Below, in pieces: positions 4,704 through 44,318 of a stretch of 44,318 nucleotides of DNA. Source of the stretch: Candidatus Methylacidiphilales bacterium (GTDB taxonomy: Bacteria > Verrucomicrobiota > Verrucomicrobiia > Methylacidiphilales > JANWVL01); contig JANWVL010000052.1 of the NCBI GenBank assembly GCA_025056655.1, positions 1-44,318 of the forward strand. The letters are read 5' to 3'. How positions within the stretch are numbered: position 1 is the first letter of the stretch; each line of letters begins with the position of its first letter. The notes beneath the pieces were generated by a model. The model had not been told where the DNA came from and searched no databases. It saw only the letters and a program-made list of their open reading frames with translations. The translations under genes and the position numbers were made by a program.

Positions 4704-6689
4704 ATGAGTTATGAAGACACCACATCTCAAGTTGAAAATGGACTATTATCACAGCTAAAAAATGCACCTTTATTAGCTTTGAGAAAAAAAGCAGCTGAGT
4801 TAATCAGCAGTTATAAAATAAAAAAGATAAATAAAGATGTAGTAGATATTTTTTACGAAACAGATGATGAGGAAATAAGGAGAATAATTGCTCGTGTTCT
4901 TTTAGAATCAGATAAAGACAAAGCGATCAGCGTTGTTGTAGATTATATAAACAAAAATAAAGGTGTTAATAACGCTGAATATATAAAGCTCATAGTAATG
5001 TATGGAGGCCAAAGTATCACGAGTATCCTCGCTGATATCTTATTTGATTTGACCCACTCTAAAGAAACTAGATCTGCTTGTGCTACGATAATAGGAGAAA
5101 ATCGTTTTTACCACCTTAGCCATCTACTCAGAAAAGGTTTAATTCATGAGGAATACGGAATACAAGAATGCTGCGCTCATGCTTTAGCTCTTCTTAACGA
5201 TAAACAATCATGCGCCGCTTTGATTTTCACAATAAATAACACAGATGATTTTACTATTAAAAAAAGTTGTTTGCAGGCTTTATTTGCAATTGACCCATTA
5301 TTAGCTACATACAATTCACTTTCATGGATTAAAAAATCCGATAATGATCAATGGACAGCAACGCTTTTAATGTACTTAGGAATAAATTACCAACCTAACT
5401 TTATGCTTTATTTTGAAATGTTCGCAAAACTATTAAACCATCAAAATACTGATATAAGAACATATGCAGCTGTACTACTCGGCCGTATGATAAACGAAAA
5501 GACCGCCGAAACATTTTTAGACAAAATGAAGACAGAGAAGAGTTATACCGTAAACTTAGAATTAGCTAAAGCCCTCATTGATTCAGGCTATGGCGATAAG
5601 TTGATAAGACTAATGGAAAGTGATTTGTTTAATAGGGATGCTATCTTGGCGTGTATTAGAGCGATGCAAATCTGCGAATATCAGGCTGGATTCAATTTAC
5701 TTAAGCATATGATATACAATAGCAAAGATTTAGATATATTATTTTGTGCTATAGAAGCTGCACCAAAACTAAATACGATGATGGGCATAAATATTATCAC
5801 CAACTTACTCGAATCAATAATAAATAAGCGCCCCTTTGATTTCGATGATCAATCCATTAACTTAATTTTGAATAAGCTCTTGTCAACTATTGGATTATAC
5901 GGAGACATTCAACATCTGGAAATACTACTTAATATACTAGAAATGCCATTACACGATAAACATAAAATAATATGCGCACGTTCTATAAATGATATTTTGA
6001 TGAGGAATAAAGACACTATAATGAAAACCAACGAAAAAAATGAGCAACACAACGAGAGAATTTACAAAGAAAAGGCACGCATGTTTATCATGCGTCTAGA
6101 TAGAATATTGACAGAATGTCCACCGTCTATACTTATTGAAGCAATGGATGTGATGAAAACATTTCACATAGGTATATCGGCATTGTTTAATGTTCTGTCT
6201 CTACATGAAAAGGATGATTCAACGCGCGATTTATTACTAAATTTATCAAACCAACAGGTATATATTTTAATAGACGCTTTGATCAAGAAATTTGAACATT
6301 CTGAGAACTTGAAATTAAGGAAGACATGTGGAGAGGTTTTGTCTAAATATATCGATGATAAAACAGTGAGAAGAGTCTTCATAGATTTATCTTTTCATGA
6401 AACCGATTTCGAGATTAAACTACTCTCTTTAAGAGCACTAATCTCTGGAGGGTGCCTTGAAGTTATACCAATATTGCATGCGCAGATTCTTCGTGAAGAT
6501 GATCCGGAAAGATTGTCTCAATACGCAGAAGTTATATTAAAGGAAGGTGTTTATAATATTGAAAATATCTACCAACGTCTAGTTCAATCAGATATTAGCA
6601 ATGATTTAAAAATAGGACTAAATAGAATACTGAATGAAAGAAGGATAATGATTAAACAAAACGATCATTCGCAAAATATTTTACCGTGA
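4704..6689 (+). CDS. Large HEAT-like helical-repeat protein
   Basis: This is a 661-residue, Ile/Lys/Asn-rich protein with no signal peptide or membrane span. The whole length is made of roughly 30-40-residue paired helices typical of HEAT/armadillo solenoids, for example LRKKAAELISSYKIKKINKD, then VVDIFYETDDEEIRRIIARV. Later repeats include TRSACATIIGENRFYHLSHL and DIRTYAAVLLGRM. HEAT solenoids usually act as scaffolds for protein binding, and some bind DNA; nothing here shows a catalytic site. The start is fixed by the -10 box seven bases upstream. The gene stands alone, with long empty spacers on both sides. Two other long solenoid proteins occur at 9908 and 18015. The function is unknown; the solenoid fold is inferred from the pattern. 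Confidence 0.75.
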   Translation: MSYEDTTSQVENGLLSQLKNAPLLALRKKAAELISSYKIKKINKDVVDIFYETDDEEIRRIIARVLLESDKDKAISVVVDYINKNKGVNNAEYIKLIVMYGGQSITSILADILFDLTHSKETRSACATIIGENRFYHLSHLLRKGLIHEEYGIQECCAHALALLNDKQSCAALIFTINNTDDFTIKKSCLQALFAIDPLLATYNSLSWIKKSDNDQWTATLLMYLGINYQPNFMLYFEMFAKLLNHQNTDIRTYAAVLLGRMINEKTAETFLDKMKTEKSYTVNLELAKALIDSGYGDKLIRLMESDLFNRDAILACIRAMQICEYQAGFNLLKHMIYNSKDLDILFCAIEAAPKLNTMMGINIITNLLESIINKRPFDFDDQSINLILNKLLSTIGLYGDIQHLEILLNILEMPLHDKHKIICARSINDILMRNKDTIMKTNEKNEQHNERIYKEKARMFIMRLDRILTECPPSILIEAMDVMKTFHIGISALFNVLSLHEKDDSTRDLLLNLSNQQVYILIDALIKKFEHSENLKLRKTCGEVLSKYIDDKTVRRVFIDLSFHETDFEIKLLSLRALISGGCLEVIPILHAQILREDDPERLSQYAEVILKEGVYNIENIYQRLVQSDISNDLKIGLNRILNERRIMIKQNDHSQNILP

Positions 6690-7452: not shown

Positions 7453-8832
7453 CTACAAACTTAACGTGGCATGCAACGCCTCACCTAGGCTGCGCACCGG
7501 CAATAGTTGCAGACCATCTGGAGGGCGTTCTACCTTGCGCGCTGTTTTTGGCAAGATACAACGCGTGAAGCCAAGCTTGGCCGCTTCGTTAATCCGCTGG
7601 TTAAGCTGGCCGACGCTACGTACCTCGCCGCTTAGTCCCACTTCGCCCACTACAACGATATCGGCTGGGACAGGCACGCCTTTATGGGCGCTTGCGATAG
7701 CAACTGCAGCGGCTAGGTCAGCGGCTGGTTCGTCAATCGTTAATCCCCCCACAACATTCACAAATACGTCTTGGTCATGGAGGCGAATGCCGACGCGTTT
7801 GCCCAATACCGAGATCAGCAGAAATAATCGGTTGTAGTCGAAGCCGTTAGCAGTACGGCGCGGCATAGGGTTCTGAGTGGGGCTGGTCAATGCCTGCACT
7901 TCGACCAGCAATGGACGAGTGCCTTCCATTGTCACGGCAACTGCGCTGCCGGGCGTGTACAGAAGACGTTCGGCTAAGAAAGCCTCGCTGGGGTTGATCA
8001 CCTCGCGCATACCGTCACCGGTCATCTCGAACACGCCGACTTCGCTAGTGGCGCCAAAGCGATTCTTCATGCTGCGCAAAATGCGGAAGGACTGGAAACG
8101 ATCACCTTCCAATTGCAGCACGGTGTCTACAATGTGTTCAAGCACCTTCGGTCCAGCCAGATTGCCTTCTTTGGTCACGTGGCCGACGATGAACACGGCC
8201 ACATCATTGGACTTGGCAATCGCCTGCAAACGTTGTGCGCTTTCTCGCACCTGGGTAATTGTGCCCGGAGAAGATGGCAAGCTGTCCATATACATGGTTT
8301 GGATCGAGTCCACGATGCATAGCTTTGGTCGCAGCGCTTCAATAGCATGAATTACGTGGTCAAGGTTAGTCTCGGAGAGCAGGTAGAGATCGCTCTGGCC
8401 TACGCCTAGGCGTTCAGCGCGCATCTTGATCTGCTGGGAGCTTTCTTCGCCGCTTACGTAGAGTGTTGTCCCGATATGTCTGGCGACGAGTACAGCGCTT
8501 TGGAGTAGTAACGTACTCTTGCCGATGCCCGGGTCACCACCGATCAGTACAAGCGAACCTGGCACGATGCCGCCGCCTAACACACGGTTGAATTCACTGA
8601 TTGGCAAAGGCAGACGCTGGGTCGCGTCAGCGCGGATATCGCACAGCTTCTGTGGTGTAGTGCTGAGCGTCGGCGCGCGCCGGTCGACGTTCGGCTGCGC
8701 CCCGACGACTTCCTCAATCAACGTGTTCCATTCGCCGCATGCTGGACACTTACCTACCCAGCGTGCTTGTGTACAGCCGCACTTATTACAAATATACTGT
8801 GTCCTTAGCTTGGGCATAATCGTTTTTGGCAT
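7453..8832 (-). CDS. radA: DNA repair protein RadA
   Basis: RadA is a RecA-like ATPase that speeds branch migration and processing of recombination intermediates. The 459-residue product has all family landmarks. The N-terminal zinc finger reads YICNKCGC, then GKCPACGEWN. The Walker A reads GGDPGIGKSTLLLQ (about residue 100), and the Walker B region KLCIVDSIQTM. The RadA-specific KNRFG motif is present (MKNRFGATSEVGVFEM). The C-terminal Lon-like domain ends RSLGEALHATLSL. I chose the ATG at 8832 (MPKTIMPKLRTQYICNKCG); a TTG ten codons upstream is in frame but less likely, and an ATG at 8817 would also be family-typical. The gene is GC-richer than the AT-rich sequence around it, so it looks like a conserved chromosomal gene stranded in accessory DNA. 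It appears to be monocistronic. Confidence 0.97.
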   Translation of the reverse strand: MPKTIMPKLRTQYICNKCGCTQARWVGKCPACGEWNTLIEEVVGAQPNVDRRAPTLSTTPQKLCDIRADATQRLPLPISEFNRVLGGGIVPGSLVLIGGDPGIGKSTLLLQSAVLVARHIGTTLYVSGEESSQQIKMRAERLGVGQSDLYLLSETNLDHVIHAIEALRPKLCIVDSIQTMYMDSLPSSPGTITQVRESAQRLQAIAKSNDVAVFIVGHVTKEGNLAGPKVLEHIVDTVLQLEGDRFQSFRILRSMKNRFGATSEVGVFEMTGDGMREVINPSEAFLAERLLYTPGSAVAVTMEGTRPLLVEVQALTSPTQNPMPRRTANGFDYNRLFLLISVLGKRVGIRLHDQDVFVNVVGGLTIDEPAADLAAAVAIASAHKGVPVPADIVVVGEVGLSGEVRSVGQLNQRINEAAKLGFTRCILPKTARKVERPPDGLQLLPVRSLGEALHATLSL

Positions 8833-9907
8833 AGCGATCAGTTTATCACTTATATCAGGCAAGGGTAAATAAAATTGGGATGTAGGCTATGCAAGATCTA
8901 CCTATGCAACCCTATCAATTTAAAACGATTATTGTTAGACAATCGAAACTAAGACAATATATCAATAGTATATTAAATATAAATACGGATCGTGTGTTAT
9001 TTGTCTTGATTATCAAGGCCTGTCTCGTGTAGATAAAATCAGACGAAGAACGCGGTTATCATATCACTAAGGCCTTTTTTCTTTGATGCATATCAACCAA
9101 AATACTTTCTTAGTTATGCTGATGTTGTCACAAAGATATACTTCCTTAAAGATAGTTGGTTATATCAGCGTAACACAAATGACGTAACAAATATGATCAT
9201 CTTCTTAAACTAATGCTAAAGTAGATGATTCAGCAAGTATAATCTAGATACATCCCCTGCGAGTCGTTTAACTTCATCGCAACCGAATATACTCTAGAAT
9301 TTATATACCGAGACAAAAAGAATTGCCGGAAGAAGTATAAAACGACATATTAATTAAATCTGTTGATGCAATACTGGGATACCTATGGCTTTCGATCCTT
9401 TGATCCTTTTTATTTCAATAATATCATTGCGCCATGATATTATTTATTACCTCATCATGCAGTGTGTACCAGTGTTTGATTTGTGCTATAAGTCATACAT
9501 TCAATTCTTAAAAATCTTAGCGTGTTGATGATTATGATGGTGAGTTAATCATCAGTTATTGGAATATGAAATAGAAGGATAAAAGCACATTTACCAGCAT
9601 ATACCCCATCGAGTAAGTTGTAGATTACTAATTTAAGCCATAAATTATTGATAATAATGCGAGGATTTGGTTATCAATATACATATTATGATTTTTGCGG
9701 TATATTTCATATTGGAAGATTAAATGATCGCTTCAGTTGTAAGTTAAAGCAAAAATGATATGCTCTGCATAGGTTATCTGATTGATGTCGCGATTATTTT
9801 GCTTTTTTGCTACAGCTTCGCTGAAATTTCTTGAGTGCGTCGTATATCGAATGATACCCATTTACATATCTAATCCCACACGGATCTTCAGTTATAATAT
9901 GAAATAT
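8833..9907. other. Long AT-rich spacer
   Basis: Over 1 kb with no protein-like frame on either strand. Short GC-richer patches (around 9030-9085 and 9255-9300) may be eroded coding sequence. In the last 130 bp a frame joined to the next gene is open, but its translation has no similarity in character to the protein, and the promoter at 9893 lies inside it. Confidence 0.55.
9893..9898 (+). promoter_or_regulatory. -10 hexamer that decides the start of the next gene
   Basis: TATAAT lies nine bases before the ATG at 9908 and directly abuts another ATG at 9899. A transcript starting 6-8 bases after the hexamer could only use 9908. This argues against the longer frame that opens at 9782. Confidence 0.5.
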
Positions 9908-11746
9908 ATGCCTTGCTTTAACTTAATAAACCGCATTTTATCTCGCAGTGCATATGAGGATTTGCCCGATGGAATATACAAAATTAAAGATGATTTGATA
10001 AATGAGATTTTGTCAAATAAAGAAGAGGCTTTCTTTGTGCTTAGTAATTTATTATCAAATGATGAAAATCTGCCTCTTATCTATAAAGCCTTGATTTTGA
10101 TTTATATAGGCGCGACAAAGATGGATGAAGCTGAGAAGGTTATTGATGAATACAAATACTCTAAAGATTCTTTTATAGCCTATGCGGCAAATTTAGCATG
10201 GTATTATATGAATAGAGATGAAGATTCTTATAATTACCTAATTGCTAAATTACATGTCGTGTGTAAAAACAATAATCACGATTTATTACTATTATTTAAA
10301 AACGTCTTCCTACTTGATCGAGAAATAAAATTAGCTGTAGCTAATTTAATTGAAAATATATGTAAAATTGATCAATATCCTTTAATTGATGAATGCATTC
10401 AATTATTAGAAGAAATGGAATGTTCTGAACATATATGCAGGATTCTGCTGTATGTATTAGATCATAAAAACGCCGAGAATATCATCATATTTAAAAGTCA
10501 TCCCCTCCTTTGCCATGGAATATTTAAAGTATTAAAAAACATGCCGCAGTGGGAAAAAGTTAAATTAGCCGAGAGTATTAGTCGTATAGATTATTTCAAT
10601 CTTTGTGAATTTTTGTTGGATGCATATAATGAGAGTGATGAAGTGCTAAGACTTACTATCCTTAAAAATACATCCTCGATCATTAACAAAATTCGTAAAT
10701 CATGTATTAACTGTATTGATTATGATAAACAAGAACATAACATTTTTACTTTACAAAGATGTGGCGAAATATCTGAGGTTGTATTTAAACACATCGAAAG
10801 AGATGTCAAGGATAAATTGCATTCAAAGTCATTAATCGGTTTATGTGGTGGAGATAGCGCAGTAAAAAAACTAAGAGTTTTATTAACAAACAAAAAGAAA
10901 TTGAACAGTTCTTTTATAAAGGCAATTCTTGATACTCTAGATAAAAATCTAGTGAGTGATTTCGTTGAAAACGCATTAAATCATGACGTTTCTTTGTTGA
11001 ATAATATTCCGGATGATGATTGTTATATATTTTTAATGAGAGAAGGATTAATAGACATGATGCTAGATTATTTCGTAAAATCACCAAAGGTTAGAAATAG
11101 AACTCTTTTCTGTATTTTAATGAAGTATTTCATGCATAAAAAAGACTGTCAAGCGATGAAAATGATAGTTGATCATTCGTATAATATTAATATAATAAAT
11201 TGTAATAGTATTCACAAGGATATATTGGAAATTGGATCGGATTTTGCGTGGTATTATTTTATGAAAATCATTGAGAGGGATAATTTGAAGAATTTCTGTT
11301 TAAGTTTGAATAATTTTATATGTCTTTATACACCTTTCTTAATTTCTCAAGAGAACAGGAAGATACTAGAATTGTTGGATCATGTCATTGACCTAAAAAT
11401 AGATAAGAAAAAATTATTTCTGGCTATTTTATTGTGCAACAACGATTTGTCTTTCGAGCTTATTTATAAATTCTCACAACATTTCGATTTTTTATTAGAT
11501 GACATAAATTTGGTGAACTGCCATATATTAAACAAGGAAAAGATAATAAAAAAATTGTGCGATTTTTTAATAAAAGAAAAAGACGAGGGTAAAATATTAA
11601 GTATAATTAAAATAACGGAAATGTTGGATAAGAATATAAAATATAATTTGATAAAACAGAGGGATTTATCCTTCTATGTAATAAAATTAATAGATATGAT
11701 GATGTATGATAAAAGATACAATTCAGACGAGACTTTATTGTTATAA
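9908..11746 (+). CDS. Large helical-repeat protein (solenoid family A)
   Basis: The protein is 612 residues from the ATG at 9908; the frame is open upstream to 9782, but the -10 box at 9893 favours the shorter form. It is very rich in Leu, Ile, Lys and Asn, with no signal peptide or membrane span. The body is all-helical with 30-40-residue paired helices (for example LINEILSNKEEAFFVLSNLL and LIYKALILIYIGATKMDEA). The first 100 residues align with the start of the protein at 18015: YKALILIYIGATKMDEAEKV against IKAQALIYLALINSDKLKDV, followed by matching YxxS, AA and NRxE positions. I infer that the two are paralogues. No catalytic motif is visible and the function is unknown. The gene is solitary. 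Confidence 0.75.
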   Translation: MPCFNLINRILSRSAYEDLPDGIYKIKDDLINEILSNKEEAFFVLSNLLSNDENLPLIYKALILIYIGATKMDEAEKVIDEYKYSKDSFIAYAANLAWYYMNRDEDSYNYLIAKLHVVCKNNNHDLLLLFKNVFLLDREIKLAVANLIENICKIDQYPLIDECIQLLEEMECSEHICRILLYVLDHKNAENIIIFKSHPLLCHGIFKVLKNMPQWEKVKLAESISRIDYFNLCEFLLDAYNESDEVLRLTILKNTSSIINKIRKSCINCIDYDKQEHNIFTLQRCGEISEVVFKHIERDVKDKLHSKSLIGLCGGDSAVKKLRVLLTNKKKLNSSFIKAILDTLDKNLVSDFVENALNHDVSLLNNIPDDDCYIFLMREGLIDMMLDYFVKSPKVRNRTLFCILMKYFMHKKDCQAMKMIVDHSYNINIINCNSIHKDILEIGSDFAWYYFMKIIERDNLKNFCLSLNNFICLYTPFLISQENRKILELLDHVIDLKIDKKKLFLAILLCNNDLSFELIYKFSQHFDFLLDDINLVNCHILNKEKIIKKLCDFLIKEKDEGKILSIIKITEMLDKNIKYNLIKQRDLSFYVIKLIDMMMYDKRYNSDETLLL

Positions 11747-12519: not shown

Positions 12520-13130
12520 CAACAAACATCCAGCGAGGCATCTCAATATTTCGACCCACGTCGAAGATAGCGTCAAAGGTAATTGCGAACCCGATGTTCG
12601 TCGCACTAGTGATATCCCCTTAGATTATTCTGATCACTGGAGCAGACTGCTCGTCGTACAAGCAGCGCTGTCCACCATGCACGCAGCCGAATCAACGTTC
12701 CAGTATTCATTCACGACGTTGGCTGTGTAGGCCTCAAACTTTAGGCCGCAACTTTTCTTTTTAGCTCGGTAATTTGAGTGATCATCTTAATCACCAGACT
12801 GGGCTCAGATAAATGCATCAAGTCTTCAGTAAAGCTGCCAAGACATTAAGTATTGCAAAAGCAGGATGCTAGATTGTAATCTCTGCGCGTCGATGAGATT
12901 ATGGCCTTCTTGAACCCCACAAAGCCCAGCTCGTGCAACTGAACGAGTATCCTAATTCGTTCACGCAAATTAGCAACGACGTAGCTATGTTTGCGATCAA
13001 AAGATATGTTCAAAATTATCTCGCCATTGATGAATTTGATGCTCCAGTGCCAACGTCACCTATGGCGATGAAAGTCTGCCCGATGTGCCTACGTGTCGCG
13101 CAGAAGCGCCTCTAGTTGTTTAAGCAATGC
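12520..13130 (-). pseudogene. Unidentified degraded coding remnant(s)
   Basis: The composition is GC-richer than the spacers on either side, and protein-like stretches appear in several minus-strand frames but are cut by stops. Examples are NLRERIRILVQLHELGFVGF with a KKAI continuation, LMHLSEPSLVIKMITQITEL followed by KRKVAA, and NIGFAITFDAIFDVGRNIEM followed by PRWMFVE. They read as helical segments of one or two former genes. I cannot assign a family. The stretches 12394-12519 and 13131-13364 hold nothing recognisable. Confidence 0.4.
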
Positions 13131-13364
13131 TTTCAAATTCTGCTGATTGGGGTGATTGATCGAAAATATCGTCCGTCTATATGAGCGAGATAGTCAAAAC
13201 TTTGAAAATGGCGGTGCTCCAGCATTTGACCACTGGTTAGCTTATATCAATCAGACGCTTCATATATACAATTGATCTACTTCTGATTTACTGCATGACT
13301 TGATCAACCGATCAACAAGACAACATAAATATTTAGATTTAAATATCCCCGAATGTGTTGGCCT

Positions 13365-16175
13365 TTAGAGGTCTTTCAGAAGTATTGGAACTAAGGCACA
13401 GCGTGGAACAACTGATACACCCGGCGCACTACGCACGATCTCACATTCATGCGCACCGATTACCACGTTGTTGTTCAACACATAGACATCTGGTAGTGGT
13501 CCACTACCTGCACATACCGTCAATGTGATCATCGTAGTTCCATTCGCTGGCACAGTCACATTGCTCCGCACCAGTGTTTGCCCGCTCTGCACATAGCCAG
13601 GTGTTGCTCTCAGCAACGTCATACGCACCACTAGCGTGTCAGTCTCTCCCGCACTGTCGCCAGCAGGCTGCCGTTGTTGCTCAGTACGATGGTATACGTC
13701 ACCGCATCGCCCATGCGCACCGCCGTCGGCTTCGCCTCCTTGCGCGTGCCGGTCAAGCCGCTCGTGTTCAGGGTGCCGATCCTGTCATCTTGAACGATAA
13801 GCAGCCAGCGTTCGCCGTTGTCCGCCTGCGTGGTGTCACCATCGTAGTCCATCGCTGTCACCTGCCACCAATAGCTGCCCTGGTGCAAACCGACCACCGC
13901 GTGGCTCGTCCCGGTCACTGTGACGTTATTCATCACATCACACAGCCCCCATGCTGTCCCGATGTATACGCGCTAACCCACTGCGCTGCCTGCAACCATC
14001 CAACTCAGCACTGTGCTGTTGCCCACTACCGTTCCACTGATCTGTGCGACATTCTGGAAGTTGTCTGTCCTGCTCATGATGTCATTAGCCGTTGTAAACA
14101 TCCATCACTGCTCTGCATTTGCTAGGCAGGACTGTCCGTCGTTGTAATCCCACACTTGCCACCAGTAAGTGCGCTCGGCCTGCGCACTTGCCAGCACCAG
14201 GCTGGTTGTTGGACTGATCACCTGAACATGATTCATTACGTCACGCGGCCAGAGCAAACTGCCCAAGCACACAGTGTAGCGCTGCGCGTGGACTGCTGCG
14301 CCCCAGCTCAACGGCGCGCTGACCGCCACATAGACCGTGGTATTGGCCGGCGCGGCTTTGCTGAGTGCGCCAATCGGTGATCCTGGATTGTTGTCAGTGC
14401 TGAAGCGCCACCACGCTCCACCATCAGCCCGGGTTTGTCCGGATGCATTCACCGCACGCACTTGCCCCCAGTAGATAGTGTCATATGCCAGACCGCTCAG
14501 TACGTAGCTCGTCGCGGAAGCGTTCGTCCAGCCGCCGGTGACTGAGCAGTCGCCGGACAGGCTGCCGACGCCCAGCTGATAGCCGATCGTACCGGGCGAT
14601 GTGCTCCAGCTCAGTAGCAAGGTGGTCGCATGATCCGCCGCGCTGTTGGCCGGGCTGGTCTTGCCGAAGGTGCCTGGCGCACCGACAGGCGCTGCGGTGG
14701 TTAAGTGCTGCCATGCTCCGTTGTGGGCTTGCGTCTGCCCGCTCGTGTTCACTGCGCGCACCTGTCACCAGTAGGTGGTGACAGGATTCAGCACGATGGC
14801 GAAGCTCGTGTCACCAGCGTTGATCCAGCTTACCGTCACGTCGCACAGCCCGGCCTGCGTGCGATGCAGACCTGGTTGCTACTTGCACCAATCGCGCTCT
14901 GCCAAGCTAGCGTAACGTTCACTGGCACGCCACGGGCGCCTTGCAGCGGGATAAGCTTGCTAAATGCCCCAGGCCCAGGTAGCATATTGGGCACCGTTGT
15001 GAACGCCCACCACTGACCACTGTTGGCCTGCGTGCTTAGGCTGCTGCCCAGTGCGCGTACCTGCCTCCAGTAAGTCATCGGCGTTTGCATGGCCGGCGTT
15101 ATCGCCCATTGCGTGACAGTGCCGACGTTCACTCAGCCGCCGGTGGCATCGCACAGCCCAGATGCGCTGCCACGTATATAGCCGCTTGTGCCGGTGCTGA
15201 CGAACCAGCTTAGTACCAACGTTACAGTCAGGCGCATCGTCGCTAGGTAGAACGGCGGTGCTTTGCTGAACTCCGTCGGTGGGTTCGTATTGCGCTTGGT
15301 GAACCGTCACTACGCCCCGCCGTTGGCCGGGGGCGTCCCGCCGCCGTTCAGCGCGCGCACCTGCCATAAGTAGGTTATTCCGGGCAACAGGTTGGTCACG
15401 CTCGTGGTTAGCGCGTTGCCCACGTTGAGCCAGGTGTTGCCCGGCAGCGCGCCACAGCTGCTCGCTGCTGTGCCGGGGCAGACTTCATAGCTATTTGCAC
15501 CACTGGCTGGGAACCAGCACAAGGTTAAGCTGAATGTGGGCAAGTGAAACGTCCCGTTGACCGGTGCGTCTTTGCCGAGGTTGCCCGGTCCGCCTACATT
15601 CACTGTCGTGAAGTAGAAATCCACCCCACCATCGGCGAGCGCTCGCGTGGCCGTGACGTTGTTATAGGCGCGCACCTGCCAGTAGTATGTCGTCGCCGTC
15701 TACAGAGTTACGCTAAAAGGCAACTGGCAGACGTATCGCTTCAGCACGTTGACGACATCCTGAAAACCGCCGTCGCTGAGATCACACGTGCCAGGGAGCG
15801 TGCCCATGCACACTTCATATCTGTCAGTTTCTGTATAAGTTGTCAACTTTAAAAGCACGCCATCTGCGTTGGTTGGCATGTTGATCGCGCCGTTGGGTGT
15901 GGTGGTTTTCTGGAACGGGACAGGCACTGGCGGGTTGATCGTTTTGAAGTCCCATGCCACACCGCCGTTTGCAGGAGTGCATCCGCCTGCGTTGCAAGCA
16001 CTGACTTGCCAGTAATACTGTGTTCCGTAATCCAGACAGGTAAGAATGAAGATTGTGCTGTTGGCAGTTATCGTGACATTAGCCATATTGCAAAGGCCGA
16101 TGGCATTGCCGACTCAGACCTGATAGTAGGTCTCGCCCACTGCATCCTGCCATGTCAACGCCAGACCAATCGGTT
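13365..16175 (-). pseudogene. Broken gene for a secreted Fn3-repeat surface protein
   Basis: Minus-strand frames give at least seven copies of a module of about 90 residues. The module has an opening PxNG..N, a SW..s.ga..Y.vC.gT..G.C sequence, a WxNV stretch, the very regular YWWQVRAxNxxG, and an ending ANGGaWW.FTT. This is a fibronectin type III-like pattern. The last pieces (13631-13936, then 13365-13631) hold a DUF11-like module (RMGDAVTYTIVLSNNGSL, then RSNVTVPANGTTMITLTV) and the C-terminus RCALVPILLKDL. In-frame stops (near 13975, 15135 and 16110) and several frameshifts break it. The 5' end is cut at about 16175, where unrelated sequence begins, so no signal peptide remains. The C-terminal VPI-x-basic ending resembles that of the intact 1990-residue protein at 36759. 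Intact, it would have been a surface or extracellular adhesion-type protein. Confidence 0.75.
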
Positions 16176-18014: not shown

Positions 18015-19787
18015 ATGAGCAATTTAAAAGTGCTAATAGACCATTTTATATTATACAGAAATATATACAATCATGACTATCGCGAAATGTTTAATTATAT
18101 TCAAAACCATAGAGAATTATCAGAGATGATATTGTTGACATCAATTATTAATAAATCAACTCACGACCTAATCAAAGCACAGGCTCTAATTTATCTCGCA
18201 TTGATCAATTCTGATAAATTGAAAGATGTTTTATACTTATATGAAAATAGCGAAACCCTAGTTATTCACACTGCTGCATACATCGCTAGATGTATATTGG
18301 AAAACCGCAACGAATATAAGGAGAAGATAATTGATTATATAAATAAACCGGGCTTGATAGTTGTAGAATTGGTTCATCTATTTGATTTAGTTTTAGATGT
18401 ATGTCAGGGTATACATGATGCAATATATAATGAAATGAGACGTTTTCCTTCTTGCGATCATTTTACGGAGAATATATCTGGTATACATTTTTATCTTGTC
18501 ATGTGTGAAAAGTTGGGGATAAACGATAAAGATATGATTGATATAATAGATAAAAGAGTTAGTTATTTAAAAATTTATGATTTAGAATATTTATTACACA
18601 ACCGCAACAAGAATGCTTTAAGATACATTTATGATTTAGCTTCGAGGGCGGTTAATATTTTAAAAGAAAAATATGGTAAAAATGATGAAATAAATGAAAG
18701 CGATAAAGAAAAAATAACAGAAGTGATATCTATTTTAAGTCAAGGTCAATTAGATGAGCTTTATTTTCTAGTAAATCAATTTCTTCTGAACGAAGAAGTA
18801 TATGAAAAGATAAAGGACGGAGAAATAGAAGAAGAAGTCCTATCTTTAATTGAAAATGTGCTATGTTATTTTGATACACCAGATAAACCTTTTCCATCTG
18901 ACTTTTTTGGTATTTTACTGGAAAAATTGTTTCGACGTAGATATATAGGCGATTTTATGTCCGAATCATTAGCTCTTTCCCAGAACGCTCTTGCTGTGGA
19001 TAAAATTGTTAAGTGTATAAAAACAATAGATTCAATGAAAGATATATACAATAAAGCAGTAGAAAAAGGAAACGGTCTTTTAATCATCAAATTGAAGGAA
19101 AAAATTAGGGAGATTGATCCTGAGGGTAAATATATTCATGAATTTTATGATAAAAATATTTGCGATAATGAAAGAAAAAAGCTAATAGATAGATATAATA
19201 CTCAATTAAAGTTAGATTTTTATCTTCGCAGAATCTACGAAACAGAAGAAGATAATATAAAGGATAGCCTTATATCTTATCTTGATTTATTTATATCATC
19301 TTATCAAAAAGGAATATATCCATATAGCTTGTATAACAGCGTCGAGTATTGTTTGGCTCTATTAATATTAAAGAATGATCTAGAACAAAAAGATCTGATT
19401 AAGAAGGTATTAGACTGCTTCAGTCATGACAAAAATAAGTTATCTAGATGTATGTTCCTATTGTGTTTAAATAACAATGAGGAATGGATTTCTCTTTTGT
19501 TTAAATACGCCGATAAATTACTAGAATATCCAGCTAGAGAAATATTTAATCTACTCGAGTTAATGGATAAAGATAAGATTTCAAGATGTATTGTCAGCAC
19601 AGTTCAAGATGCTAGGTATGATTATGAAATAAAAAATATATTGAAAATATCTAAAAATATATGGTCAGACTATGCTGAAAGAATTCTTTGTTATATCAAT
19701 AAACGCAATATGTCAGATAAGAAAAGAATAGATCACAAACTTATTAGTAATTTAGGAGATTTAGAACACGAACAATATTATATATGA
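18015..19787 (+). CDS. Large helical-repeat protein (solenoid family A)
   Basis: This 590-residue, strongly charged, Lys/Asp/Ile/Tyr-rich protein has no signal peptide or membrane span. Most of it is predicted by pattern to be paired helices. The first 100 residues (EMILLTSIINKSTHDLIKAQ, then ALIYLALINSDKLKDVLYLY, with HTAAYIARCILENRNEYKEK) align with the front of the 9908 protein, so I infer a paralogue. The middle has a run of acidic residues (KDGEIEEEVLSLIENVL). Unlike most AT-rich genes here it has a recognisable AGGTGA ribosome-binding site four bases before the ATG. No enzyme motif is seen. The gene is solitary. Confidence 0.75.
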   Translation: MSNLKVLIDHFILYRNIYNHDYREMFNYIQNHRELSEMILLTSIINKSTHDLIKAQALIYLALINSDKLKDVLYLYENSETLVIHTAAYIARCILENRNEYKEKIIDYINKPGLIVVELVHLFDLVLDVCQGIHDAIYNEMRRFPSCDHFTENISGIHFYLVMCEKLGINDKDMIDIIDKRVSYLKIYDLEYLLHNRNKNALRYIYDLASRAVNILKEKYGKNDEINESDKEKITEVISILSQGQLDELYFLVNQFLLNEEVYEKIKDGEIEEEVLSLIENVLCYFDTPDKPFPSDFFGILLEKLFRRRYIGDFMSESLALSQNALAVDKIVKCIKTIDSMKDIYNKAVEKGNGLLIIKLKEKIREIDPEGKYIHEFYDKNICDNERKKLIDRYNTQLKLDFYLRRIYETEEDNIKDSLISYLDLFISSYQKGIYPYSLYNSVEYCLALLILKNDLEQKDLIKKVLDCFSHDKNKLSRCMFLLCLNNNEEWISLLFKYADKLLEYPAREIFNLLELMDKDKISRCIVSTVQDARYDYEIKNILKISKNIWSDYAERILCYINKRNMSDKKRIDHKLISNLGDLEHEQYYI

Positions 19788-20971: not shown

Positions 20972-21844
20972 ATGAAATCGTTATGGCCTATTGGAACTAA
21001 CAAACGTTCTCATCCAAATTATAAGGCTGTTATTAGCCGATGGGTACCTTATCATGATCGTCAAATATTAGCTCAGGATATTAATCCTGATCACAATAAT
21101 GTCGATGCAATTGCATTACGTGCTATTCGTTATGCAAAGGCAGTAGAAATTGAAGATGAAGACATAAAGTCCGCATTCTTTCATACTCTAGAATATCTAG
21201 AGCATGTATATGGATACCATAGAATAAAGGATGCGGAAGAGATTGTTTTCGCTGCCTTAACGATGATTCGTAAGATCAATGATCAGGATATTGCATATTT
21301 ACCAAAACAATACGGACATGCTTATCTTGATATATTTATCGGTGCATTAATTGAGCAAGAAGCTAATATTAAGGGTGTATATAACAATCAACCTGTGCAA
21401 ATAAATATACGTAGAAAAAGTGCTTCTGTTGAACTTTGTGATGCTTTGTATGCAGCTAGAGCAATGCAAAAGTTTAAATTGTCGGAAGAGGAAGCTAAAA
21501 TGATCGCAGTTGTACATGTTGATATGCGTTTACAAGCTATGGAAGAGATCGGTAAACAAATCCTGTATCAATCTGAAACTTTAGCCCATTTTGTAGACGA
21601 AATAGAGAAGTTGAAACTAAAAGATTTCCAATTCCAGCAAGCGCTATTTGTGATGACTTATAAGTCCAGATATTTACCCAGTGGTATTCTTGAGATAGAT
21701 GATACTCATAAAGAGCACATTTTACCAGAAAATAAACAAAACCCTGAAAGTAAGGGCGAGGATATTTATGATAGCAATAATATCAATGTTGAAGATGATG
21801 TGATGGTTGATTTATATAAGTTAATATCTGAAGATAATTCATAA
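20972..21844 (+). CDS. Unrecognised 290-residue protein
   Basis: The protein starts MKSLWPIGTNKRSHPNYK and is soluble and mostly helical. It has a Tyr/His-rich first third (LEYLEHVYGYHRIKDAEEIV), a helical centre (ELCDALYAARAMQKFKLSEE) and an acidic, probably disordered C-terminal 50 residues rich in Glu, Asp and Asn. I do not recognise a family. The start is set by the extended -10 element six bases upstream and the absence of a ribosome-binding site. A strong AT-only hairpin terminator follows 13 bases after the stop, so this is a single-gene transcription unit. Its long conserved-looking frame in AT-rich DNA suggests it is under selection. Confidence 0.7.
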   Translation: MKSLWPIGTNKRSHPNYKAVISRWVPYHDRQILAQDINPDHNNVDAIALRAIRYAKAVEIEDEDIKSAFFHTLEYLEHVYGYHRIKDAEEIVFAALTMIRKINDQDIAYLPKQYGHAYLDIFIGALIEQEANIKGVYNNQPVQINIRRKSASVELCDALYAARAMQKFKLSEEEAKMIAVVHVDMRLQAMEEIGKQILYQSETLAHFVDEIEKLKLKDFQFQQALFVMTYKSRYLPSGILEIDDTHKEHILPENKQNPESKGEDIYDSNNINVEDDVMVDLYKLISEDNS

Positions 21845-24619: not shown

Positions 24620-24799
24620 ATGAATCAGGAGAAACACTACACAATACCGCTACGCGCTCTTTTCAATCATTTATACGAGCTGATTGAGCTGGTGATTTAC
24701 ATCTCATCAATAACGCAAGACCCTCTACATGCGGCAGCGGTAGAGCACCTCATGTCCGCTGCAGAGCTAATTGAAAAGAAATTAGATAGTGACAATTAG
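24620..24799 (+). CDS. Small helical protein, 59 residues
   Basis: From the ATG at 24620 the frame encodes MNQEKHYTIPLRALFNHLYE, followed by LIELVIYISSITQDPLHAAA and an acidic helical end (EKKLDSDN). It resembles a two-helix bundle with a hydrophobic face. The frame is open farther upstream, but that part overlaps the IS1-like copy c, so I take the first ATG outside it. There is no ribosome-binding site. The family is unknown. Position, just before the DnaA-box array and the VirB4 gene, is the only clue. Confidence 0.5.
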   Translation: MNQEKHYTIPLRALFNHLYELIELVIYISSITQDPLHAAAVEHLMSAAELIEKKLDSDN

Positions 24800-24983
24800 T
24801 ATTATTGGCCAAGATATTTTAAATAAAATGATCATTGATGTGCTTAAATAAATATGACAGGCATCTTTTTAAACTCAACCGCGGAATATATTAATAAAAA
24901 AGGTCTCGTATTGTACTATCAAATGAAGGTTTAATGGTTATACTAGGATACTATTCAAAGTAAAACGTCGAGCTTGTTGAAAA

Positions 24984-25178
24984 TTAACCCACAACCTATT
25001 CACAGTTTATCCACAACTCAAAGCGATTTATCCACAAAAAAACGCGGATATTATGTGAGAAAAAACCTCTCGGTGGAATTATTTTGGCCATTATCCACAA
25101 GAAATGCGGCCTTATCCACAAAATATGCGAAGATATCCACATATAAGTCGGAGAATATCCACAAACAATTGGTCCACA
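24984..25178 (+). other. Putative replication origin: helically phased DnaA-box/iteron array
   Basis: Four perfect TTATCCACA boxes start at 25007, 25028, 25091 and 25112. Near matches start at 24985 (TAACCCACA), 24996 (CTATTCACA), 25133 and 25155 (ATATCCACA), and 25170 (TGGTCCACA). All lie on the same strand. Steps of 11, 11, 21, 63, 21, 21 and 22 bp keep all but the last box on one face of the helix. Several units share more than the box (TTATCCACAAnnAATGCG), so they behave like 21-bp iterons. The 150 bp upstream are A+T-rich with runs of A or T and could serve as the unwinding region. This is the layout of bacterial and plasmid origins. No dnaA or plasmid rep gene lies within the window. 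Confidence 0.65.
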
Positions 25179-25244
25179 GGCGCTACTACTACTACTAATA
25201 CATGTACTATGTCGATGAAGGCATAAGCGCAAATGTTAAAATGC

Positions 25245-25274
25245 TTTACTCTACAGATACTACTATGCTAGAAT
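25245..25274 (+). promoter_or_regulatory. Promoter of the VirB4-like gene
   Basis: TTTACT (25245-25250), an 18-bp spacer and TAGAAT (25269-25274). The -10 box ends six bases before the ATG at 25281. This is the one leaderless-type promoter in the window where a plausible -35 box is also visible. Confidence 0.6.
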
Positions 25275-25280
25275 AAAGCC

Positions 25281-27125
25281 ATGATTAACACAATCCAGCA
25301 AATTTTGAAGCGCAGAGGACAAGATGTTAAGATACCTGAAGACATAAAAATAAAAGAGGAATCTCCACCGTTTAAGATAGGTGATGATGAGTTGAGCGAT
25401 AAAATTGCGCCGCCTTTTGTCTACATTGAAGATGATAAGATTAATATCGGTGGTGCATACTATCGCCTTTTTTATGTAGCAGAATGGCCACCAGTCGTCT
25501 CTCGTGACTTGTGGCATCGCATACTCCAGTTCAGCGGAAATATCTATATCGCACTCCATCATACCGTTATCAGTCCTGATATAGCTTCTCAAGCGCTAGC
25601 CCGGGAAGCGACCGCGCTTCGCACACAACGTAACCTGTTGGCCATTCAAAAGAGAGATCCAAACGAAGCCGATGCTCTTAGACTTAATCGCATTACTGAT
25701 GCGCGAATAAAGGTTGTTTTACATGGCGAACCTATTTTTATGTTGACTGCAGTCATTGGTATAGCTGCTCCTACAGTGGAGATGCTTGAAAAATATAGCA
25801 CTATGATCAAACAACTGCTTCAGTATGCAGGAATCAACTCTTTTTATGTGGCTCAATTTGAGCAGGATAAAGCCTTCACCAGCATATTGCCATTGGGCGT
25901 AAATCTGATGGCCACCCATAGAAGAAATATCGATGCCGATACTGCGGTATCCATGTTCCCTATGATCTCCGAAGAGAACGTGGTAAAGAAAGGATTTTTC
26001 TACGGTGTTGATGTGGCTAATAAAGCAGCTATATTTGTTAACCCGATGGCTTTAGACAATCCTAATTCGATTATCATTGGCATACCCGGATCAGGCAAAT
26101 CTTTATTTCTCAAAGACCTCATCGAACAGGCTATTCTTAGAAAAATGAAGGTTTTTGTTATAGATATCGAGGACGAATATCGAAAATTATGTGATGACCT
26201 TGGTGGTGCATATCTCGATATGGCGAGCAATAGTCAGTATAAGATTAATGTGATGGAGCCGGCTTATAACGATCCCGAAGGTCTACACGGCGCGATGAAA
26301 GATTTTCTAACCTGGGTTGAATCTATACAAGGTATTCCATTAGACGCATTCCAACGAGAGGCGTTTCATAAAGCTTATTTCTTGGCTTTTAATAGCAAGG
26401 GAATATATCATGATAAACCTGAGACGTTGAGAAAAGCGCCTCCTAAACTATCAGATTTTTATGATGCGCTGGAGACTGTTGCTAAAGTCCATCGTACCAA
26501 GAATCCTGCCGTGGAAAAAGCAGCACGTCATCTCCAAAGCATTTTATATGCTTATACTTATGGCGATACTAATAAAAGCTATGACTGCGACTCAAATATC
26601 GATGTGGAAACTTATTCTCTTGTAGTTTTCGGACTTAAAAATCTCAAGCGCGGTGACTTGAGGGCCAGAATGCAGCAAATTCTGAGTTGGACTTTAGTTC
26701 AGGTTTTAAATAACACAGAAATTCCTAAACTAGAAATTGTAGACGAGGCATGGTTCTTGCTCGATTCTGATTCTACGGCCGCAGCTTTAGCTGAACGCGC
26801 TCGTCGCTTCCGCAAAAAAAATGCCTCATTGTGGCTAGCTACCCAGAACGTAGTTGATTTCGCTGCTAATCGGCACGCTTCAACTATCGTTTCAATTGCC
26901 GACACGCGGCTGTATTTTAAGCAAACTCCAATTAGTGTCGAGCAAATCGGGCAGATCGGGAAATTAAGCGCTGCTGAGAAAGCAGTCTTACCAACTCTCG
27001 AACCGGGCAAGTTCCTCCTTCATGCAGGCAATATTAGAAGGCTTGTATACAAGCCTTATCCACAGTCAAGGCATAAACTTTATACAACTCGTCCATCAGA
27101 TCATTATCCGAATAGTCCAGTTTAG
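25281..27125 (+). CDS. VirB4/TraC-family type IV secretion ATPase
   Basis: This 614-residue protein follows the VirB4/TraC family, the cytoplasmic ATPase that powers assembly and transport in conjugative type IV secretion systems. The N-terminal 240 residues are the family's helical/alpha-beta domain (RDLWHRILQFSGNIYIALHH, later GVNLMATHRRNIDADTA). The RecA-like ATPase domain has Walker A IGIPGSGKSLFLKDLI (about residue 267). A VFVIDIEDEYRKLCDDLGG segment follows, then Walker B LEIVDEAWFLLDSD (about residue 487). A later WLATQNVVDFA is typical of the family. No membrane segment is present. It lies immediately after the DnaA-box array and 29 bp before a membrane-anchored glycosidase-like gene, probably in one operon. 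No VirD4 coupling protein or relaxase is seen nearby. Confidence 0.9.
   Translation: MINTIQQILKRRGQDVKIPEDIKIKEESPPFKIGDDELSDKIAPPFVYIEDDKINIGGAYYRLFYVAEWPPVVSRDLWHRILQFSGNIYIALHHTVISPDIASQALAREATALRTQRNLLAIQKRDPNEADALRLNRITDARIKVVLHGEPIFMLTAVIGIAAPTVEMLEKYSTMIKQLLQYAGINSFYVAQFEQDKAFTSILPLGVNLMATHRRNIDADTAVSMFPMISEENVVKKGFFYGVDVANKAAIFVNPMALDNPNSIIIGIPGSGKSLFLKDLIEQAILRKMKVFVIDIEDEYRKLCDDLGGAYLDMASNSQYKINVMEPAYNDPEGLHGAMKDFLTWVESIQGIPLDAFQREAFHKAYFLAFNSKGIYHDKPETLRKAPPKLSDFYDALETVAKVHRTKNPAVEKAARHLQSILYAYTYGDTNKSYDCDSNIDVETYSLVVFGLKNLKRGDLRARMQQILSWTLVQVLNNTEIPKLEIVDEAWFLLDSDSTAAALAERARRFRKKNASLWLATQNVVDFAANRHASTIVSIADTRLYFKQTPISVEQIGQIGKLSAAEKAVLPTLEPGKFLLHAGNIRRLVYKPYPQSRHKLYTTRPSDHYPNSPV
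27038..27064. other. Perfect 20-bp palindrome with an adjoining DnaA box inside the VirB4-like gene
   Basis: AAGGCTTGTATACAAGCCTT (27038-27057) is perfectly self-complementary, and a perfect TTATCCACA (27056-27064) overlaps its end. Both are within the last 30 codons of the coding sequence, where the protein is not strongly constrained. It may be a protein-binding site connected with the origin array 1.9 kb upstream. Confidence 0.4.
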
Positions 27126-29075: not shown

Positions 29076-30197
29076 TCAAATCGCCAATGCCTCTAAAACG
29101 TTCTTCTGCCATAACTCACCTAAGCTATATTCTGCAAGCCATGGCACAATTTTATTTTGATCTATGCGACGGATCATGGATATACCATGGTCAAGTTCTA
29201 CGAGTAAAATATCCTCATGTTCAAACTGATCAATAAGCGTAGCTGATTGAGTAGATAAAACAACTTTCGTGCGGTCAGTTACAGTTACGCTATGAATCAT
29301 CTCAGCCAGCAAAACAATAGCATATGGATGTAATCCTAGGTCAGCGTTATCTAGGACAATTAAAGAAGGTAACATTTCACGTGGTTGCAAAAACAATGTA
29401 GTCAAGAAAATAAATCGGAGCATGTTATCAGAAAGCATATTTGCGTTGAAGATGAAATCTGTATTATTTTCCTTCCACATCAATTCAACATGGTTAAAGA
29501 TGAATGGATGTCTTCGCAGGAAAAAATCACTGAAGGATGGATTCACCATCCGTATAGTTTGAACAATGCTGTCGTAGTTCTTCGGATATTTATTTCTTAG
29601 CATGTCGAGATAAGCGGGTAAATTGCTCGCGTCAGGCGCCAAACAGAGATTATCATCAAGGTTGCAAGGCTGTTTTGCGCGCGCTAATGCACTACTGTCG
29701 TTAAAATTATAAATATGCCAACTACGTATAGCGTCAAGAATTTGACGAGGTATATCAGAAATGTTTGCCCAGTGCGGTAGATGACTTTCCGTCGTGATAT
29801 TATCATGTTCACAATAAACGATTGGGTCAGAAAATTTGCTGCTATCGCGAACATAGATCGTTTCATTAACCAATTTCATGCTCTTTTCGGCTGGAACTAA
29901 CTTGCAATGATAAGCAGAGGATAAATTGTTATCATGCTTAAACCATATTGTAATATTTATTAGATCACTTTTCATATGACCGTAGTGCAGTATCGCGCCT
30001 GAGCCATTTGATTTATCTATATATGCTTGAAATTCCTGATTGACTATACTTTTAATCATACCGAAAAGCCTTTGAATATTAGATTTTCCGGCACCGTTGG
30101 CTCCAATTAGCACATTCACTTGTTTTATTGGCAGATCTAACGTCCTAAAGGATTTGTAATTCGTTGCGATAATTCTTTCGAGAATTATACTTGACAT
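29076..30197 (-). CDS. AAA-family ATPase (RecF/OLD-like, AAA_21 type) with an altered Walker B
   Basis: This 373-residue ATPase is of the SMC/RecF-like, single-gene type often found in accessory DNA. Walker A is LIGANGAGKSNIQRLFGMI (about residues 30-48), directly after the typical front NYKSFRTLDLPI. The C-terminal half has PSLIVLDNADLGLHPYAIVL (about residue 275-295), where relatives read IDEPELGLHP. The STQSATLIDQFEHEDILLVE segment matches the usual end. The catalytic Glu after the Walker B Asp is Asn here, so hydrolysis may be impaired. The start has a good ribosome-binding site (AAGAGGGA) and a TGCTATAAT 27 bases upstream, so unlike its neighbours it has a leader. Related proteins occur in anti-phage defence loci, but no partner nuclease is adjacent. 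Confidence 0.85.
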   Translation of the reverse strand: MSSIILERIIATNYKSFRTLDLPIKQVNVLIGANGAGKSNIQRLFGMIKSIVNQEFQAYIDKSNGSGAILHYGHMKSDLINITIWFKHDNNLSSAYHCKLVPAEKSMKLVNETIYVRDSSKFSDPIVYCEHDNITTESHLPHWANISDIPRQILDAIRSWHIYNFNDSSALARAKQPCNLDDNLCLAPDASNLPAYLDMLRNKYPKNYDSIVQTIRMVNPSFSDFFLRRHPFIFNHVELMWKENNTDFIFNANMLSDNMLRFIFLTTLFLQPREMLPSLIVLDNADLGLHPYAIVLLAEMIHSVTVTDRTKVVLSTQSATLIDQFEHEDILLVELDHGISMIRRIDQNKIVPWLAEYSLGELWQKNVLEALAI

Positions 30198-30547: not shown

Positions 30548-30626
30548 GTGTAAAATAACCAGACATATTGATTGGTAAAACAATGTCATGATTTATATAT
30601 AATGATGAAATAAAGCAATGATGTGT

Positions 30627-30632
30627 TATAAT
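30627..30632 (+). promoter_or_regulatory. Extended -10 element for a leaderless transcript
   Basis: TG-T-TATAAT, with the hexamer ending six bases before the ATG at 30639. Confidence 0.6.
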
Positions 30633-30638
30633 GTTGGC

Positions 30639-31475
30639 ATGAGATGGGTAGTTTTTTTGGTAATTCCCTGGATTTGTTTAGCAACTATTTTTACATACGC
30701 CATTTTGATACTGGGTAGCAGTGTAGTTTCGTCTAGTGTTTACTTTCTCGGTATGCGTACTCCGCCAATTATGAATAAAGCTGCTCCTTTCTTTGGTGTA
30801 ACATATCACGAGGTGGGTGATGCTATGAAACAGTGGGTGTTGGATGGGCGACATCCGGCTGTGACGGCTGGCGGAAATGATGACAATTATGACCCTCTTG
30901 CAGACGAAAATATGTTATATTTCTTGCCGAACGGCAATGTAGGTTATCGGCCAATTCCAGGTGCACGACCATTGCCAAACAGAAAACGCTGGTTCGAAAG
31001 TCCTATCGATCCAAATGCAGCTGTACAAGGAGGATTAGTGCGTTTTCCCATCAACCAAGCTTACGTTAGGATCACGAGTAAATATGGTGACCGGAGAACT
31101 GATACAGATTTCCACAATGGAATTGACATATCTATGTATTCAGGCACACCGCTTAGGCCTTTTGCAGGGGGTTTATCGCAAGTTGTCGCAGTTGGATACA
31201 TGGAAGGGGGATATGGCCATTACGTTGTGCTCTCGCATGGTTCGGGGAATGATCGCGTGCTTACGCTTTATGCACATCTTTCAAGTGTACACGTTCAACC
31301 AGGCCAAGTGATCGGAGAAAATGATACTATCGGTTTATCCGGGAATACGGGTAATTCTACAGGGCCTCATCTTCACTTCGAGGTTATTCGTATGGGCGAA
31401 AATGGTATCCCGGTCAATATTTCACCATGTGAATTGCCAAGTTTTGCTGAGTCTGCACCTGAGGGTGCATGTTAA
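30639..31475 (+). CDS. Membrane-anchored M23-family peptidase
   Basis: The protein is 278 residues from the ATG at 30639. An ATG seven codons upstream is in frame, but the -10 box lies between the two, so 30639 is preferred. An N-terminal hydrophobic segment (VVFLVIPWICLATIFTYAIL) anchors or exports it. The C-terminal half is an LytM/M23 zinc endopeptidase: DFHNGIDISMYSGTPL (first His about residue 159, with Asp four residues later), LYAHLS, and GPHLHFEVIR (final His pair about residues 245-247). All metal and catalytic positions are present. Such enzymes cut peptidoglycan peptide bridges and often accompany type IV secretion systems. With the VirB4-like gene and the glycosidase-like gene it may open the wall for a channel. 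The gene is followed by 33 bp and a convergent gene. Confidence 0.9.
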   Translation: MRWVVFLVIPWICLATIFTYAILILGSSVVSSSVYFLGMRTPPIMNKAAPFFGVTYHEVGDAMKQWVLDGRHPAVTAGGNDDNYDPLADENMLYFLPNGNVGYRPIPGARPLPNRKRWFESPIDPNAAVQGGLVRFPINQAYVRITSKYGDRRTDTDFHNGIDISMYSGTPLRPFAGGLSQVVAVGYMEGGYGHYVVLSHGSGNDRVLTLYAHLSSVHVQPGQVIGENDTIGLSGNTGNSTGPHLHFEVIRMGENGIPVNISPCELPSFAESAPEGAC

Positions 31476-42731: not shown

Positions 42732-42835
42732 TTTGCCCTCCCTCTAGTGAACATAAAGTGGAATTTGCTTTACTCAGATAACTTCGATTCGCGCAAATCA
42801 ATCTAGTCATCCTTCACCATAAATCAAGACTGTTT

Positions 42836-42863
42836 TGATCATGTTTTGATCATGTTCTGATCA
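42836..42863 (-). promoter_or_regulatory. Three TGATCA boxes at 11-bp pitch upstream of the giant surface-protein gene
   Basis: TGATCA occurs at 42836-42841, 42847-42852 and 42858-42863, with spacers TGTTT and TGTTC. Because the box is palindromic and the pitch is 11 bp, proteins would bind on one face of the helix as an array. The same arrangement with two boxes precedes the STAND gene. Confidence 0.55.
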
Positions 42864-42974: not shown

Positions 42975-43200
42975 CTATCGCGTGCGTTCTAGGGACGCCG
43001 CGCACCATGTCGGTGTTGCGGCGCAGCGTGTCGGGGAAGTCCATCGTCACCAGCAGATCGTAAATCCTATCCATTGTCGCTAGCAGGGGCTCGGCTTCCT
43101 GCTGTGGCCGCTGCGGATCTCGTCCAGCACACGCCGACGCAGCTCGCCGGCGGCCTCAGCGAGGCCGTTAGCCGCTTATCGGTGGCGTGTGACGCGCGCT
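42975..43200 (-). pseudogene. Remnant of a translin-family protein
   Basis: One minus-strand frame reads LAEAAGELRRRVLDEIRSGH. After a frameshift near 43100 the next reads EAEPLLATMDRIYDLLVTMD and FPDTLRRNTDMVRGV. Another shift gives LERTR and a stop. The order (GELRR, MxxIYDxL, LRRxxDxxRxLLERTR) is that of bacterial translin-like RNA/DNA-binding proteins. The N-terminal half is not found up to 43400, and the frameshifts make it a dead fragment. Of the sequence around it, 42864-42974 and 43201-43359 show no gene. Confidence 0.6.
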
Positions 43201-43359
43201 GGCCTACTAAATCTAGGCTTAATAGAGCGCAACCGTCCACGAAGCGCGAATTAGGTTGTTGTGGATGGGGCTTGTCCACAGGTCTGGATAACGCCCAGGA
43301 CTGGCTCAATCTAGCGGAATACTAGCGGAGTACCAATGATCGAAGCAGCATGCTCAGGG

Positions 43360-44177: not shown

Positions 44178-44318
44178 CTAGGGGTAGAGGCGATTGAGCA
44201 AGCGCGGGAATGGTGAGGCCTCGCGCACGTGTTCGATGCCGCAGATCCAAGCCACCGTGCGCTCGACGCCCAGCCCGAAGCCGCTGTGCGGCACGCTGCC
44301 GTATTTGCGCAGCTCGAT
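44178..44318 (-). CDS. asnS: Asparaginyl-tRNA synthetase, C-terminal end (partial)
   Basis: The last 47 codons before the window edge read [20 protein letters not shown], then [20 protein letters not shown] and LNRLYP before a TAG. This is class II aminoacyl-tRNA synthetase motif 3 (GFGLGxER) and the family's C-terminal end, IEHVREAxPFPR. [15 protein letters not shown] is characteristic of AsnRS; AspRS differs here. The enzyme charges tRNA-Asn in the cytoplasm. The reading frame is intact in the visible part, and it is a core chromosomal gene, which supports a chromosomal origin for the GC-rich block. Confidence 0.9.

Follow-up and report, generated by a model that had tools for sequence, protein, structure and literature searches.

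In bacterial origins, the "basal unwinding system" (BUS) is formed by a DnaA box, a spacer and DnaA-trios (PMC6669920, PMC8287927). The published search rules accept a box with no more than 2 mismatches, a spacer of 0–16 bp, and three or more trios, each with an A at its centre; the GC-rich part of the spacer has a mean length of 4 bp, and for a second box the search program allows a mismatch not above 4 and a gap within the pair of at most 3 bp (PMC8287927). In the case of C. difficile, the trio of oriC2 is 5'-CACCTACTACTATTACTACTATGA-3' (PMC7561715). For Chloroflexota, a literature search returned no oriC study.

The window analysed here is the whole of contig C52 (44,318 bp), which belongs to a genome assembly (G000) of 178 contigs and 2.44 Mb, and it carries an array of DnaA boxes ending in a block of the BUS type. 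The array shares with the B. subtilis-type oriC BUS (PMC6669920, PMC8287927) the boxes, a GC-rich spacer of about 4 bp and the repeated 3'-GAT-5' trios; however, it is not situated by dnaA/dnaN, its proximal box has 2 mismatches, and it lies in an AT-rich island bearing a VirB4 gene. C. difficile oriC2 likewise has CTACTACTATTACTACTA trios after a cluster of boxes, together with a candidate unwinding region, and the trios of the array are close to those of oriC2, but oriC2 is chromosomal, bipartite and located in the dnaA region (PMC7561715). Iteron plasmid origins also contain 21-bp direct repeats, whereas the repeat core of the array is the DnaA box itself and no rep gene is seen.

The DnaA-box array and its terminal block

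24800–24980, no strand: AT-rich left flank of the array, 71% AT
24985–25178, + strand: array of nine DnaA boxes, four of them perfect, all on the same strand
25007–25163, + strand: 21-bp iteron array with the DnaA box as its core; TRF finds the 21-bp period
25007–25036, + strand: pair of perfect TTATCCACA boxes, 21 bp apart
25091–25120, + strand: pair of perfect TTATCCACA boxes, 21 bp apart
25133–25163, + strand: pair of ATATCCACA boxes with 1 mismatch each, starting at 25133 and 25155, 22 bp apart
25170–25178, + strand: BUS-proximal DnaA box TGGTCCACA, 2 mismatches, as many as the BUS search program accepts (PMC8287927)
25179–25182, + strand: GC spacer GGCG, 4 bp
25183–25197, + strand: five perfect DnaA-trios, CTA five times on the + strand and thus 3'-GAT-5' five times on the − strand
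25198–25280, no strand: candidate unwinding region to the right of the trios, 65% AT over 83 bp and only moderately AT-rich

The starts of the nine boxes are separated by steps of 11, 11, 21, 63, 21, 21, 22 and 15 bp. The perfect TTATCCACA occurs four times on the + strand, at 25007, 25028, 25091 and 25112, and the boxes with 2 mismatches, also on the + strand, are TAACCCACA (24985), CTATTCACA (24996) and TGGTCCACA (25170). The 63-bp step corresponds to three 21-bp units, the box having been lost in the units at 25049 and 25070. In the tail of the unit, GCG near unit positions 16–18 is the most constant element. The first-pass annotation had described four perfect and five variant boxes on one strand as a 21-bp iteron array with a DnaA-box core, and this description is largely upheld. 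The count and the strand are confirmed, the place is right with the first base at 24985 instead of 24984, and the steps agree except for the final 15-bp step, which had been left out; the 21-bp period is recovered, but the AATGCG tail given for the unit is shared only partly.

Such a density of boxes is far beyond chance. In 2000 dinucleotide shuffles of positions 24801–25280 (480 bp), boxes with at most 1 mismatch have a mean of 0.1 and a maximum of 2, against 6 observed, and perfect boxes have a mean of 0.0045, against 4 observed. Dense clusters elsewhere had been proposed as a check, and the whole 2.44-Mb assembly contains no second place with two perfect boxes within the spacings searched; this agrees with the earlier reading, but the assembly-wide count is weak evidence because the contig apparently comes from an organism other than that of the assembly's remainder. 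A plasmid blastn search with the array as query gave no match.

From the last box onward, the order is TGGTCCACA-GGCG-CTACTACTACTACTA-ATACATGTACTA (25170–25209). The box in front of the trios has the 2 mismatches that the search rules allow, the spacer is GC-rich and, at 4 bp, lies within the 0–16 bp range, and there are five 3'-GAT-5' trios where at least three with a central A on the 3'-5' strand are needed. The second box, ATATCCACA, starts 15 bp upstream of TGGTCCACA and leaves a 6-bp gap, compared with the published limit of 3 bp, and more boxes are located beyond it. The window contains a single box with a spacer and four YTW triplets, against 0.01 expected. The block of box, GGCG and (CTA)5 at 25170–25197 is absent from the first-pass annotation and alters the interpretation: the origin-like character proposed there is now supported more strongly, by the DnaA-trios of the BUS. 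Since this block ends the array, the two together very probably constitute a BUS-type DnaA-dependent origin, functional or recently so, and not an ordinary box cluster. From the architecture and context of the sequence we infer that DnaA binds here and that the DNA is unwound and replicated. The same-strand boxes, which are one or two helical turns apart, would be occupied head-to-tail by DnaA-ATP; next, guided by the last box and the GC spacer, the DnaA filament would pass onto the five minus-strand 3'-GAT-5' trios, and the duplex would open to the right of the array, at approximately 25183–25280, admitting the helicase.

The contig and the putative oriC of its relatives

7453–8862, − strand: RadA, 90% amino-acid identity to Thermoflexales bacterium SKYG109, close to Ca. 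Roseilinea
42979–43169, − strand: translin-like gene, broken C-terminal part with the N-terminal part missing, 13-base shortfall against relatives
43200–43308, no strand: flank of the relatives' putative oriC, including CTAAATCTAGGCTTAA and weak boxes at 43260–43291; aligns with the relatives
44178–44318, − strand: asparaginyl-tRNA-synthetase-like C-terminus at the contig end (named by eye), a chromosomal anchor

Besides RadA, the VirB4 of the window has its best relatives found in the same family (Thermoflexales, 41%), and the right end of the window matches Thermoflexales-family DNA at up to 81%. On account of these three matches, the contig is apparently derived from a Thermoflexales/Ca. 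Roseilinea-like member of the Chloroflexota and mis-binned in an unrelated genome, as far as its sequence can tell. It is chromosomal in part, yet apparently not from the organism that forms the rest of the assembly. A point against mis-binning is that the assembly contains no other full-length radA, its sole full-length match being located on this contig. The dnaA contig of the assembly (G000 C110) has a PEP-CTERM protein and RpoN among its ORFs (named by eye), and its DnaA is only 37–47% identical to Thermoflexales DnaA. The array as the oriC of the assembled genome G000 was dropped as a candidate in view of this low identity and of the apparent Chloroflexota affiliation of the contig. The boxes of the array are not adjacent to dnaA, and GC skew across the 44-kb contig displays a compositional mosaic and is uninformative.

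In the Thermoflexales family, box clusters are situated upstream of a translin-like gene, beside CHAD-type and LCP-type genes (named by eye). The translin-like gene is present in 22 of the 28 genomes; at its locus, G090 and G091 have 10–11 boxes, and Roseilinea has mostly weak boxes. The family is not uniform, and some members carry box arrays with steps of 11–22 bp upstream of dnaA. In the complete relative G093, GC skew sampled in 42 pieces of 16–20 kb from a 4.67-Mb contig places the origin at 3.0–3.6 Mb, and none of 500 permutations is as good; translin at 3.163 Mb and ftsZ at 3.583 Mb are both compatible with this interval, and dnaA at 4.02 Mb is disfavoured. The translin locus is thus the putative Thermoflexales oriC, for which the skew of G093 is support and not proof. 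Away from dnaA, this translin-CHAD-LCP locus is represented by L202, L211, L219 and L220.

A box pair TATCCACAGTGTCAAGC..TTATCCACA is also conserved in Thermoflexales (G093:C1:3583425, and in G060, G061, G062, G064, G094 and G096), located in G093 between ftsA and ftsZ, where it possibly serves DnaA control of cell division or as an alternative origin site. As the Thermoflexales oriC, this TTATCCACA pair is less likely than the translin locus with its up to 11 boxes, and the sampled skew fits both.

Compared with the putative Thermoflexales oriC, the array is likewise a DnaA-box cluster, and the broken flank of that locus is found at 43 kb of the window; however, the translin-CHAD-LCP clusters consist mostly of weak boxes in both directions, have no CTA trios and are of another sequence. 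The array neither occupies the translin/CHAD/LCP position nor shares sequence with the origins of the relatives. A box, spacer and (YTA)4 combination occurs in none of the 28 Thermoflexales-family genomes, so the BUS of the array appears foreign to the oriC of this lineage.

At the right end of the window, the alignment with the relatives' flank ends exactly at the start of their TGTGGA...TGTGGAT cluster, and this truncated copy of the putative oriC locus is 18 kb from the array. Either the old origin has been destroyed, or a rearrangement has split it from translin. Loss of the origin is not claimed here, because G064 and G066, where the translin-like gene was not found, still have the box cluster next to LCP or CHAD genes. 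Given that the contig has only a truncated copy of the relatives' putative oriC locus, the array may itself mark an unusual chromosomal oriC location, as the first-pass annotation had suggested as an alternative. An 11-bp repeat of the TGTTTTGATCA type is present in three tandem copies at 42831–42863, immediately to the left of the broken translin-like gene.

The island around the array and similar arrays in phage contigs

22588–23793, − strand: transcriptional regulator, phrog_2439, of mobile-element type
24620–24799, + strand: 59-aa ORF, predicted helical hairpin, no family
25281–27125, + strand: VirB4/TraG-type conjugation ATPase, CD1110-like, below the curated cut-off
30618–31475, + strand: M23 peptidase, a VirB1-like partner that comes after VirB4 in the conjugation loci of relatives

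The VirB4 gene starts 84 bp past the trios. Its product is 41% identical to those of G064:C82 and G087:C597, relatives occur in only 14 of 396 genomes of the class (E 1e-20), and neither genome_contigs nor viral_contigs contains a close one. The order of VirB4 and M23 matches the gene order of Chloroflexota conjugation loci. All flank loci fetched around the VirB4 relatives are devoid of a DnaA-box cluster; the array as a fixed part of a VirB4 conjugation locus is therefore rejected, and the origin and VirB4 may adjoin by accident.

The composition of the island differs from that of its surroundings, GC3 being 0.24–0.38 in the genes around the array, against 0.60 in radA and 0.72 in the other chromosomal-type genes of the contig. 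In addition, the region contains inverted IS-like copies, and an integrase piece is present at 1.1–1.4 kb of the window. The approximately 20 window ORFs scanned include no recognisable relaxase, coupling protein, Rep or ParA. A VirB4 ATPase is thus found without the relaxase and coupling protein of a conjugative element, and no Rep initiator gene of the iteron-plasmid kind lies beside the iterons in these ORFs; the conjugative element here may be a remnant. The first-pass proposal of an integrated plasmid or conjugative element accordingly fits the AT-rich, IS-scarred island with VirB4 and M23, but none of the four marker genes was recognised in the scanned ORFs. Its suggestion that the 59-residue product is an initiator accessory finds no support: the ORF has no family, its predicted fold is a confident but generic helical hairpin whose structural matches are generic only (E >0.2), and it shows no initiator likeness. 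For a sizeable unknown ORF nearby (290 aa, 20972–21844), the predicted fold has a pLDDT of 35 and is unusable. Rfam and tRNA gene searches gave no hit in the window, and the ends of the contig have no overlap that would indicate a circle.

Arrays of closely similar design exist in phage contigs. The IMG/VR contigs L332, L336, L344, L347 and L356 share the one-strand steps of 11/12 and 20–22 bp and the box with a short spacer and (CTA)4–6; there are differences, however, as their proximal box pair is often 8–9 bp apart, compared with 15 bp in the array, and they are phage-borne and not beside VirB4. In IMG/VR, three perfect TATCCACA cores spaced by exactly 21 bp are found in 61 stretches, and TCCACA-N2-6-(CTA)4 is found in 35. 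Counting the box before the trios, about two-fifths of these 35 have at least five same-strand boxes and about three-quarters have at least three. Some of the (CTA)4 contigs, such as L332, flank terminase-like genes (named by eye). Origins of the DnaA/BUS type are thus found repeatedly in mobile DNA, and the most economical interpretation of the array is therefore a mobile origin.

Competing readings of the array

Since both its sequence and its place differ from the family's putative oriC, the array is most likely a mobile-element origin, probably of the DnaA/BUS type and belonging to an integrated element, plasmid-like or conjugative, that would employ host DnaA. This origin would be situated within the AT-rich, IS-scarred VirB4/M23 island, inside a Thermoflexales (Chloroflexota) chromosome contig. 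The GC3 contrast, the order of VirB4 and M23, the presence of VirB4 in so few class genomes and the likeness to IMG/VR stretches argue for it; the unrecognised Rep, ParA, relaxase and coupling protein in the scanned ORFs and the VirB4 relatives' flanks without clusters argue against it, as do, furthermore, the distance from dnaA, the only moderate AT content of the unwinding region and the uninformative GC skew. A turnover of origins is considerably less likely: the array would then be the active chromosomal oriC, imported by the mobile island and replacing the ancestral oriC. The relatives' putative oriC flank is present with its translin-like gene broken and its box cluster cut off, an intact and strong putative origin lies 18 kb away, and the sampled skew of G093 favours 3.0–3.6 Mb (translin, ftsZ) over dnaA. 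However, the truncation may represent a rearrangement breakpoint, and the cluster could survive by the CHAD/LCP genes, as it does in G064 and G066.

Arrays of DnaA boxes also exist outside origins. One example is datA, which is a subject of PMC4585315. A datA-like site for titration or regulation of DnaA, or a promoter through which DnaA would control the VirB4 operon, is improbable as a substitute for an origin. The proximity of the VirB4 start to the trios is suggestive, but neither titration nor promoter control calls for a GC spacer with five DnaA-trios in register where the array ends. Still less probable is a Rep-iteron origin, in which a plasmid Rep binds the 21-bp repeats and the likeness to DnaA boxes arises by convergence: the 21-bp periodicity with the shared GCG tail fits this reading, but the core is a perfect DnaA box four times, no Rep family occurs in the window ORFs scanned, and the fold of the unknown ORF at 20972–21844 is unusable on this point. 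A functionless combination of a chance microsatellite and a decayed box cluster, in a contig with many pseudogenes and IS scars, is hardly credible in the face of four perfect in-phase boxes and of trios whose position, order and strand are all correct.

The array is a sequence-defined, testable putative DnaA origin in Chloroflexota, with the box, spacer and trios of the BUS on an apparent mobile island. Should it fire, chromosome-type origins dependent solely on host DnaA can be carried by mobile elements, and oriC could be relocated or replaced naturally in this way. Simultaneously, the comparison points to the putative Thermoflexales oriC away from dnaA.

Further genes of the contig include that of an AAA ATPase (29076–30197), a relative of the anti-phage protein MAD3 that scores below the curated cut-off. 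Very AT-rich long ORFs (GC 0.28–0.33) lie between Roseilinea-like genes at 4704–6689, 9782–11746 and 18015–19787; the first encodes a HEAT-repeat protein, and the other two are without a convincing family match. At 12933–16086, a large surface-protein gene is split into many frames, and the contig displays signs of genome decay.
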